Translations under genes and position numbers: made by a program
In this document: positions 1 through 46,993 of the stretch, one piece after another
Layout of the letters: each line of letters starts with the position of its first letter
Numbering within the stretch: position 1 is the stretch's first letter
The notes under the pieces: model-generated
Seen by the model: the letters and a program-made list of their open reading frames with translations, nothing else
Told to the model about the DNA's origin: nothing
Database searches by the model: none
Assembly: GCF_019192965.1 (NCBI RefSeq)
Contig: NZ_JAHTKU010000023.1
Location: forward strand, 1-64,000
Source of the DNA: Nocardioides daeguensis
GTDB taxonomy: Bacteria; Actinomycetota; Actinomycetes; Propionibacteriales; Nocardioidaceae
Length of the DNA: 64,000 bases
Direction of reading: 5' to 3'

Positions 1-192
1 ACGACAGGCGCCGTTCACGCCGGTCGGTCAAGCTCCTGATCAGGCCAGTCGCTCCAACCCGGGCCGGGGCCGGCAACCACGAGCGGACAAGTCCACTTCA
101 AGGCACGAAGCCAGTCTCGAGATGAGTACACCCGCGGTCACCGCCCCACAGCCCATCACTGATCAGGCTGCAAAGGAATCCTCACAGTCTCG
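1..192 (-). mobile_element. Left-end noncoding region of an IS110-family element (copy A), cut by the window edge
   Basis: Positions 1-192 are the reverse complement of 45520-45712, the 5' noncoding part of the intact IS110 element, and differ only by one missing base between positions 127 and 128. The transposase of this copy would lie to the left of the window and be transcribed leftwards. Its outer boundary abuts the same palindromic repeat family that flanks the other copy. Whether the rest of the element is intact cannot be seen. Confidence 0.9.
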
Positions 193-33305: not shown

Positions 33306-34897
33306 CGTCACCGCTGACCGAAGGAACCGACAGCATCCCGGGCGACCTGGCGACCCGCGGGACACCGATCGCGACACGCGTCGAAGGTCTCGGCGCCGCC
33401 GTCGAGGCGGCCCGCGGCCGGGTGGCCGACGCCCTGCTCGACGACATCGCGGCGGCGGTCGAGAAGTCCACCGGCCGACTGCGCCTCTCGGCCCGTCACA
33501 CCGTCGTCGCCATCGCGGGCGCGACCGGATCCGGCAAGTCCTCGACCTACAACGCCCTGACCGGCCTCGAGCTGTCCTCGGTGGGCATCCGCCGCCCCAC
33601 GACCTCGTGGGCCACCGCGGTGGTCTGGGGGAGCCAGGGCGCCGGTGAGCTGCTCGAGTGGCTCGGCGTCCCGCCGCGCCACCAGACCATGCGCGACTCG
33701 ATGCTCGACACCCCTTCGGAGTCCGAGCTCGACGGCGTCGTCCTGCTCGACCTGCCCGACCACGACTCCACCGAGGTGGCCCACCACCTCGAGGTCGACC
33801 GGCTGATCGCCGTCGCCGACCTGATGGTCTGGATCCTCGACCCGCAGAAGTACGCCGACGCCGCGGTGCACGACCGCTACTTCAAGCCGATGGGCACCCA
33901 CCAGGACGTCATGCTGGTCGCGCTCAACCACATCGACACCGTGCCGGTGGAGCGCCGCCAGGCGATGGTCGACGACGTGAAGCGGCTGCTCGCCGAGGAC
34001 GGCCTGCCCGACGTCCAGGTGCTGCCGATCTCGGCGCGCGAGGGCATCGGCATGGCCGAGCTCCGTGCCGAGATCCTGCGGCGCGTCAACGACAAGCGCA
34101 GCACCACCTTGCGTGTCGAGGCCGACATCACGGCCGCCGCGGCCCGCCTCGAGCAGGCCGGTGGTACGACGCCCGCCCGCGAGCTCCCCGGCCGACGGGT
34201 CGAGGAGGCCGAGGACCGGGTCGCCGACGCGGCCGGTGTCTCCGCGGTCGTCGAGGGCATCGAGCGCACCGTCGGCGAACAGGCGCGCGGCGCGGTCACC
34301 TGGCCGCCGTTCGCGCTGCTGGGCCGCGGTGACGACGAGACCCCGGGCGGTGAGCCCACGGTCGCCCCGCTCGACCGGGCCACCGTCGACACCACCATCC
34401 GCGCGTTGGCCGACGAGGCCTCCGACGGCATCGGTCCCGCCTGGGCGCCGAAGGTGCGTGACGCCGTCACCGCCCGCCTGGCCGCCACCGGCGACCAGCT
34501 CGAGACGGGCCTGCAGGGCGTCGACCTCGGCCGCCGGCTGCCCGCCTGGGTGACCCTGGTCCGGGTGCTGCACTGGCTGCTCCTGCTCGCCACGGTCGGC
34601 GGGCTCGCCTGGTGGGGCGTCGCCGCCGTCCGGGGCACGACCGGCGACCTCCCCGAGGTCGCGGGTCTCCCGCTCCCGGCGGTGCTCGGAGTCGGTGGTC
34701 TCGTGCTCGGGCTGCTGCTCGCGCTCGTCGGTCGGATGCTGGTCCGCGGGCTGGCCCGCCAGCGCGCCGAGCAGGCCGACGAGCGCCTGCGCGGCGTGGT
34801 CCACCAGGTCCTCGAGACCAACGTCGTCGGCCCGATCGGCGCCGAGCTGGCGTCCTACGCCGCCTTCCGGCGAGGCGTGGAGGCCGCCCGCGCCTGA
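33302..34897 (+). CDS. Dynamin-like membrane GTPase, second of a pair
   Basis: A 531-aa GTPase with P-loop GATGSGKSSTYNALTG near residue 70, G2 Thr in RRPTTSW, G3 LDLPDHDST, and G4 LNHID. Two transmembrane helices (about residues 425-445 and 460-485) near the C-terminus form a hairpin, followed by a helical tail. GTG 33302 overlaps the first GTPase. Together with its partner, it is likely a membrane-remodelling or division-associated complex. The stop lies inside repeat R3. Confidence 0.9.
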   Translation: MTSPLTEGTDSIPGDLATRGTPIATRVEGLGAAVEAARGRVADALLDDIAAAVEKSTGRLRLSARHTVVAIAGATGSGKSSTYNALTGLELSSVGIRRPTTSWATAVVWGSQGAGELLEWLGVPPRHQTMRDSMLDTPSESELDGVVLLDLPDHDSTEVAHHLEVDRLIAVADLMVWILDPQKYADAAVHDRYFKPMGTHQDVMLVALNHIDTVPVERRQAMVDDVKRLLAEDGLPDVQVLPISAREGIGMAELRAEILRRVNDKRSTTLRVEADITAAAARLEQAGGTTPARELPGRRVEEAEDRVADAAGVSAVVEGIERTVGEQARGAVTWPPFALLGRGDDETPGGEPTVAPLDRATVDTTIRALADEASDGIGPAWAPKVRDAVTARLAATGDQLETGLQGVDLGRRLPAWVTLVRVLHWLLLLATVGGLAWWGVAAVRGTTGDLPEVAGLPLPAVLGVGGLVLGLLLALVGRMLVRGLARQRAEQADERLRGVVHQVLETNVVGPIGAELASYAAFRRGVEAARA

Positions 34898-34986
34898 GGA
34901 ACGAAGGCGCGGTCAGCGGCCGAAGGTCGAGGAGCGTCGGCGGACTCGCGCAGCGAAGCAAGCGAGGCCGCGACGCGTCGCGAGAC
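34880..34986 (+). repeat. Intergenic palindromic repeat R3 (uninterrupted copy)
   Basis: Begins GAGGCCGCCCGCGCCTGAGG at the end of the GTPase gene and ends GACGCGTCGCGAGAC. It matches R1 and R2 but with no IS110 insertion; after GAGAC it continues CCAGTCGC. It shows the family in its uninterrupted state and that it tends to supply gene ends. Confidence 0.75.
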
Positions 34987-37267: not shown

Positions 37268-37585
37268 GGCGCGAGCCCGTCGCTCGTGCCTCGCGCCGCG
37301 CTGCCGCGCGCGGTCGGGTCCCGTAGGGATCGGCTGCGCGTGGCGGCAAGCCGGTCGGCTCGCCGGAAGGCTCGGCTCCTGCGCTCCGGTCGCTCCTTCG
37401 TCGCTCCCTGCGCTCCGTCGCCGTCGCTTCCCGCGACGTCCGACGGGTGAGGGGAGGGGGCGCGAGCCCGTCGCTCGTGCCTCGCGCCGCGCTGCCGCGC
37501 GCGCGGTCGGGTCCCGTAGGGAGCGGCTGCGCGTGGCGGCAAGCCGGTCGGCTCGCCGGAAGGCTCGGCTCCTGCGCTCCGGTCG
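37268..37585 (+). repeat. Duplicated 125-bp structured noncoding repeat
   Basis: Unit one (37268-37392) and unit two (37459-37585) are nearly identical: one substitution and a 2-base expansion (GCGCGCGG to GCGCGCGCGG), separated by 66 bases. Each unit opens with GGCGCGAG, which pairs with CTCGCGCC downstream, and contains further inverted repeats around AGCCGGTCGGCT. The whole gap between ettA and the MarR gene (344 bases) holds nothing else; no credible reading frame. Confidence 0.85.
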
Positions 37586-37604
37586 TTCCGGCCCCTGACG
37601 GGTC

Positions 37605-45064: not shown

Positions 45065-45424
45065 ATGAGGACCAACGCCCTGACCGCGGCCGAGCGTGCC
45101 GCCCTCGACGTCACGATCCGCAACGCGGAGCAGGTGTCTCGAGCCGAGATCTCGGTCTTCGTCGGCGCCGCGAGCGGTGAGCCGCGCGACTTCGCGACCA
45201 GCCTGCACAACACCCTCGTGCTGCCGGCGCGCAGCATCTTGATCATGGTCGACCCGGACCGTCGGGTCGTCGAGATCGTCACCGGTGGCCACGTCCGGGA
45301 GCGGATCACCGACGACGAGGCCCAGCAGGCCGCCGCCGCGATGACGGCCCGGTTCTCGGCCGGGGACCTCGCCGGCGGTCTCACCCGCGGCATCGAGCTG
45401 CTGGCCGAGCTCGCCCAGGACTGA
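45065..45424 (+). CDS. DUF5130 (TPM-like) protein
   Basis: A 119-aa protein related to the TPM-phosphatase fold: residues VSRAEISVFVGAASGEPRDF, RSILIMVDPDRRVVEIVTGG and RITDDEAQQAAAAM correspond to the core strands and helix. There is no transmembrane helix of its own; it may work with the preceding membrane protein. Function unknown. Its stop codon is the first codon of repeat R2. Confidence 0.8.
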   Translation: MRTNALTAAERAALDVTIRNAEQVSRAEISVFVGAASGEPRDFATSLHNTLVLPARSILIMVDPDRRVVEIVTGGHVRERITDDEAQQAAAAMTARFSAGDLAGGLTRGIELLAELAQD

Positions 45425-45525
45425 GGCCGCCCGCGGGTGAGCTTGCGAACCCGCGGTCAGCGGCCGAAGGTCGAGGAGGCGAGCTCGCGCCGCGAAGCAA
45501 GCGAGGTCGTGACGCGTCTCGAGAC
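45423..45525 (+). repeat. Intergenic palindromic repeat R2, interrupted by IS110
   Basis: Runs from the DUF5130 stop (GAGGCCGCCCGCGGGTGAGC) to TCTCGAGAC, where the IS110 left end begins. Compared with R1 it has CGGG for CAGG, GTGACGCGTCTCGA for GTGGCGCGTCACGA and CCGCGAAG for CAGCGAAG. The element lies in the same repeat position as copy A. Confidence 0.8.
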
Positions 45526-45540
45526 TGTGAGGATTCCTTT

Positions 45541-45690
45541 GCAGCCTGATCAGTGATGGGCTGTGGGGCGGTGACCGCGGGTGTGACTCATCTCGAGACT
45601 GGCTTCGTGCCTTGAAGTGGACTTGTCCGCTCGTGGTTGCCGGCCCCGGCCCGGGTTGGAGCGACTGGCCTGATCAGGAGCTTGACCGAC
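45541..45690 (+). ncRNA. Putative bridge RNA of the IS110 element
   Basis: The noncoding left region is bounded by CCTGATCAG (45545-45553) and CTGATCAGG (45670-45678), which can form a perfect 9-bp stem around 116 bases. Inside, TCTCGAGACT (45591-45600) is identical to the host-side junction at 45517-45526, as expected of a target-binding loop. Copy A retains the same sequence with one deletion just outside this motif. Exact ends of the RNA are not known. Confidence 0.55.
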
Positions 45691-45785
45691 CGGCGTGAAC
45701 GGCGCCTGTCGTGTCTCATCACAGTCCTGCCGAGTCTCCATCCCGGACCGGATTCCACATCCACTTCCGGCAAGGAGAGATGCAG

Positions 45786-46856
45786 ATGTCCAGTCTGACT
45801 GACCTCACCGATCTACGCGAGGCCATCGATGTGGTGATCGGGGTCGACACCCACGTGGCGACCCACGCCGCGGCCGTGGTCGATGCCCGCACCGGCGCGG
45901 TCCTCGAGCAGATCACGGTCGAGGCGACCGCCGAGGGCTACGCCGAGCTGGTCGAGTTCGCCGATGCCCACGCGGTGCTACGAATGTGGGCCATCGAGGG
46001 CACCGGCAGCCACGGCGCCGGCCTGACTCGCCACCTGAGCACGCTCGAAGAGGTCGTCATCGAGCTCGACCGACCGGTACGCGCCAAGCGCCGCAACGGC
46101 GCGAAGTCCGACCCCCTCGACGCGGTCCGAGCCGCACGCGAAGCACTCGCCCGCCCCCGGCTCGGCACTCCCCGCGCCGGTCACGACCGCCAAGCCCTGG
46201 CGGTGTTGGTCGCAGTACGCCGTTCCGCGGTCCAAGCCGCCGCGGATGCCCGCCGTCAGCTGTTCAGCCTGATCATGATCACCCCCGAACCCCTCCGCGC
46301 ACGCTTCCGGGGCGCCAACGGCATGGGCCTGGTCCGGATCGCCGCCAGCCTGCGGGTCCAGGCGTCGTGGGACATCGAGACCACCATCACCGTGACCGCG
46401 CTGCGGTCACTGGCCCGCCGGATCAAGGACCTCACCGACGAAGCCGAGGTCCACGAGAAGGCAATCGCACAGATCGTGCGGGACTGGCGCCCCGACCTGC
46501 TCGCCCAACCCGGCGTCGGGCCCATCACCGCCGCCATCGTGCTGTGCGCCTGGTCCCACCCCGGCCGGGTCCACTCAGAAGCAGCGTTCGCGATGCTCGC
46601 CGGTGTCGCCCCCATCCCCGCCAACAGCGGGCAAACCACCACCCGATGGCGACTCAACCGCTACGGAGACCGCCAGCTCAACCGCGCCCTGCACACCATC
46701 GCCCTCTCACGGGCCCGCTACGACGACCGCACACGCGGCTACATCGAACGACGCACCAGCCAAGGCAAGACCACCCGCGAAGCCCGCCGCTGCCTCAAGC
46801 GCTACATCGCCCGCGACCTCTACCGACTCCTCGAAAACCCACCCCGGACCGCTTGA
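45786..46856 (+). CDS. IS110-family DEDD transposase
   Basis: A 356-aa bridge-RNA-dependent recombinase. The N-terminal RuvC-like domain shows Asp in VIGVDTHVATH, Glu in AIEGTGSHGAG and Asp pair in KSDPLDAVRAAREAL. The C-terminal Transposase_20 domain has QPGVGPITAAI and the conserved Ser of PANSGQTTTRWRLNRYG. All catalytic residues are present and there is no frameshift. AAGGAG eight bases ahead supports ATG 45786 over ATG 45780. The stop lies only 18 bases before repeat R4. Confidence 0.95.
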   Translation: MSSLTDLTDLREAIDVVIGVDTHVATHAAAVVDARTGAVLEQITVEATAEGYAELVEFADAHAVLRMWAIEGTGSHGAGLTRHLSTLEEVVIELDRPVRAKRRNGAKSDPLDAVRAAREALARPRLGTPRAGHDRQALAVLVAVRRSAVQAAADARRQLFSLIMITPEPLRARFRGANGMGLVRIAASLRVQASWDIETTITVTALRSLARRIKDLTDEAEVHEKAIAQIVRDWRPDLLAQPGVGPITAAIVLCAWSHPGRVHSEAAFAMLAGVAPIPANSGQTTTRWRLNRYGDRQLNRALHTIALSRARYDDRTRGYIERRTSQGKTTREARRCLKRYIARDLYRLLENPPRTA

Positions 46857-46874
46857 CCAACCATAGGAGCGTCC

Positions 46875-46961
46875 AGGCCGCCCGCAGGTGAGCTTGCGCA
46901 GCGAAGCAAGCGAGGTCGTGGCGCGTCACGACGCCAGGCCGCCCGCAGGTGAGCCTGCGAG
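46875..46961 (+). repeat. Intergenic palindromic repeat R4 (shortened, partly tandem)
   Basis: AGGCCGCCCGCAGGTGAGC, joined directly to the distal half (GCAGCGAAGCAAGCGAGG then TCGTGGCGCGTCACGA), followed by a second partial start at 46936. Its variant bases match R1 at the other end of the 45-kb interval, not the adjoining R2. Confidence 0.75.
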
Positions 46962-46993
46962 TCGACCGGCACCTTCCCGGAAGCGCGGCCAGA

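Follow-up and report, generated by a model that had tools for sequence, protein, structure and literature searches.

Among RNA-guided enzymes, bridge recombinases form a recent class for which few worked examples exist, and the mechanism of the IS110 family has been described (PMC11208160, PMC11208158, PMC11187229). A junction promoter is known for IS621 and ISEc21 (PMC11208160, PMC11187229); in IS621 the top strand is cut after the second core base, and the bases beside each guide, termed handshake guides, form pairs with the partner DNA once the strands have been exchanged (PMC11208158). The CT core belongs to IS621 and its orthologues and does not define the IS110 family. Here we analyse an IS110-group insertion sequence in a 64,000-nucleotide stretch of Nocardioides daeguensis DNA (the window), in the left end of which an earlier note had proposed a candidate bridge RNA. 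With a probability of roughly 95%, judged from sequence comparison, this left end encodes a bridge RNA of the IS621 type (Table 1).

Table 1. Features of the element and its target (window coordinates)
Feature	Position	Strand	Basis or remark
IS110-group insertion sequence, copy B	45525..46872	+	1348 bp; ends from ~35 relatives and empty sites in one relative
Copy A, left end only	1..187	-	cut off by contig start; guide at 113-122
Target sequence of copy B, written whole			TCTCGAGACCAGG
Left half of target, TCTCGAGA-C	45517..45525	+	end of dispersed repeat; agrees with LTG; further copies of the repeat in this genome and in other Nocardioides
Shared C of copy B	45525 or 46873		assignable to either position
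Right half of target, C-CAG	46873..46876	+	C, +1 and +2 match RTG
-10-like box GAGGAT	45529..45534	+	left end; 18 nt from TTGAC in 42/45 joined ends
Predicted bridge RNA (ends inferred)	45541..45752	+	three stem-loops, covariation
5' stem-loop	45541..45564	+	helix ≥7 bp in 34/34 relatives
Target-binding stem-loop	45566..45645	+	20-pair outer stem with 96% pairing; both sides changed in nine pairs
Left target guide (LTG), TCTCGAGAC	45591..45599	+	covaries with own left flank
Right target guide (RTG), GAAGTGG	45614..45620	+	covaries with own right flank
Handshake guide of target loop, AC	45621..45622	+	pairs with donor GT
Donor-binding stem-loop	45646..45751	+	fold, covariation, RNAalifold
Left donor guide (LDG) core, AGGAGC	45676..45681	+	equals right end 46865-46870
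Right donor guide (RDG), TCACAG	45719..45724	+	pairs with left end CTGTGA; invariant in family
Handshake guide of donor loop, UC	45725..45726	+	pairs with target GA
IS110 recombinase gene (DEDD and Ser), sole gene of element	45786..46856	+	start placed by ribosome-binding site AAGGAG at 45772
-35-like box TTGACC	46853..46858	+	right end, overlaps stop codon; TTGAC(G/A/C) in 45/45 relatives
Left donor sequence AGGAGCGT at right end	46865..46872	+	kept in all relatives

Results

The Element, Its Recombinase and Its Insertion Locus

The recombinase belongs to the IS110 group by its domains, its DEDD and Ser residues and its fold. It carries both IS110 Pfam domains (PF01548, the N-terminal, RuvC-like DEDD domain, and PF02371, the Tnp domain with the catalytic Ser) and scores 161.7 bits, vs. 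a cut-off of 140, against the NCBI model NF033542 (IS110 family RNA-guided transposase); residues D22, E72, D110, D113 and S282 are invariant in relatives down to 39% identity. The best matches of its predicted fold (pLDDT 80) are the bridge recombinases of IS621 and ISCro4 (E ~1e-10), with all remaining matches at E 4e-4 or weaker. The non-coding lengths, ~260 nt upstream of the gene and a right end of ~17 nt downstream, are those of the IS110 group; given so short a right end, and guides that lie upstream of the gene, the guide RNA that IS1111-group elements carry in a long right end is absent.

Base 1 of the window is also base 1 of the contig, and it is here that copy A is truncated; its remainder is found on no other contig, and further copies may be hidden by the assembly. 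The non-coding left end is kept in both copies, as the earlier note had stated: they are identical save for one G deleted in copy A. Both copies are inserted at the identical point of a dispersed repeat, GCGAAGCAAGCGAGGTCGTGRCGCGTC(A/T)CGAGAC-CAGG, which forms the left flank of copy B and has several copies in the same genome and others in further Nocardioides; this is why their flanks look alike. In the window, the GC-rich dispersed repeat (GCGAAGCAAGCGAGGTCGTG...) that is the element's target occurs at 34880-34986, 45423-45525, 46873-46983 and 190-294. A separate tandem duplication of ~190 bases (repeat families D3 and D5) lies at 37268-37589. The own genome contains no exact empty site of copy B, so that near-identical repeats served instead, and a search with the joined flanks in 147 Nocardioides genomes returned the repeat and no orthologous empty locus.

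Target Guides Covary With the Insertion Site

The earlier note had drawn attention to a ten-base sequence within the left end, TCTCGAGACT at 45591-45600, as identical to the left junction at 45517-45526. This identity is upheld, and together with a copy on the minus strand at 113-122 (copy A) the sequence has three exact occurrences in the window vs. 0.27 expected from shuffled windows; of the window's unrelated 10-mers, 0.08% are found again in the left end. The same note's statement that copy A's flank (GTCACGAGAC) matches only CGAGACT is correct for the contiguous match, but over the nine guide positions of TCTCGAGAC the flank departs from the guide by just one internal mismatch.

Relatives of the element were gathered from GTDB contigs and from the 147 Nocardioides genomes, and the left flank, the loops and the right flank were extracted for each. 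At the RNA position of TCTCGAGAC these relatives read TTGGCCTGAC, TTGGACTGAC, TTGTCGAGAC, TTCGACTGAC, CCGGTATGAC and others, and for the most part their own left flank carries the letters of the guide, with 0 or 1 mismatch over nine guide positions. Across 33 distinct site-guide pairs, guide and flank match at 175 of 231 variable positions, as compared with 97 ± 7.5 (maximum 132) for permuted guides; none of 20,000 permutations reached the observed value. The permutation ignores kinship among the elements, which is addressed by distant families and by a test restricted to a single site for each distinct guide (120 of 154 matches vs. 60.7 permuted). The first of the seven tested positions shows no match and therefore lies outside the guide. 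Sites outside the 33-pair test agree as well (L040, L102 and L103; among distant elements, L053, L056-L058 and L106); in L040 the target ends in GGC instead of GAC, and the guide likewise ends in GGC. The expectation in the earlier note that further copies should sit at sites resembling their internal guide was thus borne out on the relatives.

The right-hand target guide, reported in that note as not located, is present. Its sequence, GAAGTGG, is the reverse complement of the target stretch expected to start with the shared C, and it covaries with the right flank: in the 33 pairs, 117 of 231 positions after the C match vs. 80 ± 6.2 for permuted guides. Agreement is highest next to the C (97% at +1, 88% at +2) and fades beyond +2. 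Copy B's own RTG matches just C-CA of its flank (3 nt); strong single cases are found among the relatives, namely L018 and L033 (GAGCGA, 6/6) and L106 (CAGCGATG, 8/8, judged by eye). The two guides are complementary to the bottom-left and top-right of the target, as in IS621-type bridge RNAs.

These data bear on the possibility that the internal TCTCGAGACT is a chance match or an inherited copy of the repeat (e.g., captured flanking DNA) without a guiding role. True, a match is more likely in a flank that is a dispersed repeat with the palindrome CTCGAG; however, relatives at unrelated sites carry the letters of their own flank at the same RNA position, the right flank covaries separately, and chance recurrence of a 10-mer is as rare as given above. 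We consider this explanation very improbable.

Observations on Targets of Individual Relatives

In one genome (G038), seven near-identical IS110 copies (L104, L111, L115, L118, L120, L121 and L122), with a recombinase 44% identical, interrupt the same codons (WCDAH/HLDPW, placed by eye) of a multi-copy gene that gives a weak, sub-threshold match to DUF222; their guide is apparently aimed at a coding motif. The target of L023 in N. ganghwensis is, by its flanks, one arm of a REP-like inverted repeat (TGCGTCATACG ... CGTATGACGCA), and eleven GGTATGACGC sites were matched in that genome. The left ends of L016 and L018 (Nocardioides sp. Root190 and Root122) contain an N and a repeated stretch of ~100 bases near 1643-1745, probably an assembly artefact.

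Donor and Handshake Guides

The donor-binding loop contains sequences that would read the element's own ends. The RDG is exact over six bases in copy B, and in relatives at 39-45% identity the left end CAGTGA occurs with the guide TCACTG and the right end ATAGGAGC with the guide ATAGGAGC. Agreement of the LDG with the right end covers only six contiguous bases in the window family and at least eight in distant relatives. The handshake bases follow their predicted partners across families. In the target loop, AC is found where the right end has GT and AU where it has AT, so that the RTG side reads GAC or GAU with right ends GTC or ATC; in the donor loop, UC is found where targets end in GA, UU for AA (L053, L057) and UG for CA (G038). 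Handshake pairing would also be the reason why GA before the C is nearly invariant in targets of the close family. By these correspondences, the element has donor and handshake guides of the IS621 type, with all four guides located in two internal loops.

RNA Structure and Putative Junction Promoter

The region 45541-45752 folds into three stem-loops at -109.7 kcal/mol (z -3.84). When the structure is placed on 34 relatives, 84.6% of cells are paired and 23 pairs show double changes vs. 12.8 in shuffles, and pairing drops to 35-46% when it is slid by 1-3 columns; RNAalifold recovers the same target and donor stem-loops unprompted. A search of the region against Rfam, which holds no bridge RNA model, gave no bridge RNA family and one chance match. 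The perfect 9-bp pairing (45545-45553 with 45670-45678) that the earlier note took to bound the RNA does exist here, but relatives do not keep it: 56.9% of cells are paired, pairs with double changes are absent and a slid version does better. Its 3' arm, moreover, shares bases with the donor guide; we do not retain the pairing as a closing helix. A further helix, CUGUGA-UCACAG, arises in a fold begun at 45525 and was rejected as an RNA helix; because the RNA start is predicted at ~45541, this match is read as complementarity between donor DNA and guide.

Strong structure directly upstream of the gene would also suit a structured leader of the transposase mRNA (an attenuator or other translational control) instead of a guide RNA, and a read-through transcript would contain the left end. 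A leader, however, leaves the covariation of loop bases with flanking DNA and with the element ends unexplained, and we give it as an exclusive role no better odds than the chance copy; a double role of the left end, as guide RNA and mRNA leader, is possible.

When right and left ends are joined, the -35-like and -10-like boxes come to face each other, the latter reading GAGGAT, GAGTCT or similar at a spacing of exactly 18 nt in all but three of the 45 joined ends. At the level of motifs, this suggests a promoter formed where the two ends meet in the excised circle.

Crossover Point and Core

The complete genome of one relative (G054) carries the repeat uninterrupted 37 times and filled in five copies (control pattern, 0). 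Comparison of the empty site, GTTGTCGAGACCCCCGCAG, with a filled one such as L119 (GTTGTCGAGA-C-TGTGAG ... AGGAGCGT-C-CCCCGCAG) reveals that zero bases are lost or duplicated and that target and donor have one C in common, consistent with insertion without target duplication. The CT core suggested in the earlier note, by reference to IS621, is therefore not supported as common to target and donor: these empty sites share only the C.

Left junctions read GAC or GGC and the base after the C is always T; right junctions read GTC (40/41) or TTC (1/41), followed by G (24), C (14), A (2) or T (1). Immediately before the C, all 35 left junctions have the base of the target (A or G) and all 41 right junctions the T of the donor. 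In G038, with C or T at this target position, the base of the target is again seen at the left junction and the C of the donor at the right. Mixed junctions would be expected from random repair after a two-base staggered exchange. The junctions fit cleavage after the C and either one shared base or a repair that always proceeds in one direction.

Discussion

The reading of the left end as an IS110 bridge RNA, put forward in the earlier note, is strengthened by the guide-target covariation in 33 pairs, the RNA with three stem-loops, the donor and handshake guides, the promoter motif and the IS621-like fold of the recombinase. The matches of guides to target and donor, their covariation, the conservation of RNA structure and promoter motif and the empty sites are all seen directly in the genomes compared. 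Expression of the RNA, its binding by the recombinase, the chemistry of cleavage and the order of steps we infer from IS621. By this analogy, the element would excise as a circle, the joined ends of which would form a promoter (-35 TTGACC from the right end, 18 nt, -10 GAGGAT from the left end) that would transcribe the RNA from ~45541 to ~45752. The donor loop would read the joined ends of the element, 45676-45681 the right end and 45719-45724 the left end, and the dinucleotides 45621-45622 and 45725-45726 would pair with the partner DNA once strands are exchanged; the shared C would mark the point after which the DEDD/Ser recombinase cuts and swaps strands, so that the target is not duplicated.

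Protein recognition of the palindrome TCTCGAGA as the means of picking the target, with guide similarity due to common descent, would fit the palindromic target in the window and the CGAGAC targets that several Nocardioides relatives have in common, but it is the least probable explanation of all given that recombinases ~70-75% identical use the targets TGGACTGAC, GGTATGAC, CCTCTGAC and GCGAAAAGAC, each matched by the element's own RNA.

As to the core, the actinobacterial branch might recombine over one shared base, with handshake bases adjoining it and junctions resolved one way; we regard this proposal as tentative and on balance doubtful. If true, a one-base core would mean a looser core rule for programmable targets. 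A one-base shared core with uniformly resolved junctions would be the only novelty here, and a debatable one: our literature search, which covered the running text of openly available papers, found none on guides of Nocardioides IS110 elements, and a one-base core may have been published for another IS110 branch. The kind of bridge RNA is already known from IS621; what is new is that the guides of this element are read from ~35 relatives. With that many close relatives, the complete guide code becomes readable from genomes, together with natural retargeting among repeats, gene ends and coding motifs, and a set of relatives with an apparently relaxed core offers practical material on which to test target rules and the pairing of handshake bases in actinobacteria of high GC content.

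Among described systems, IS621 of Escherichia coli shares with the present element an RNA encoded in the left end, with a 5' stem-loop, a target loop and a donor loop, LTG, RTG, LDG, RDG and handshake guides in the same order, a junction promoter and a recombinase of the DEDD and Ser type. It differs in its target and in the recombinase, which is ~22% identical by structural alignment; moreover, its core is the dinucleotide CT, whereas here it is one C, and the target base that follows the C is unconstrained, being read by the RTG. ISEc21, an IS110-family element with a seekRNA that we set beside ours by its published description (PMC11187229), likewise has an upstream non-coding region in which a bottom-strand match lies 5' of a top-strand match, a circle with a junction promoter, duplication-free insertion and a transposase of similar size (358 aa); its target is different. 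ISCro4 (structure 9t56), compared at the protein level, provides the best match in fold and sequence among solved structures, although it is distant (~22% identity). Finally, a fixed insertion point in a dispersed extragenic repeat is shared with the REP-targeting elements ISPpu9, ISPpu10, ISPa11 and others (PMC1525189), which use other repeats in other hosts, whereas gene ends or coding motifs are the targets of some of the relatives analysed here.
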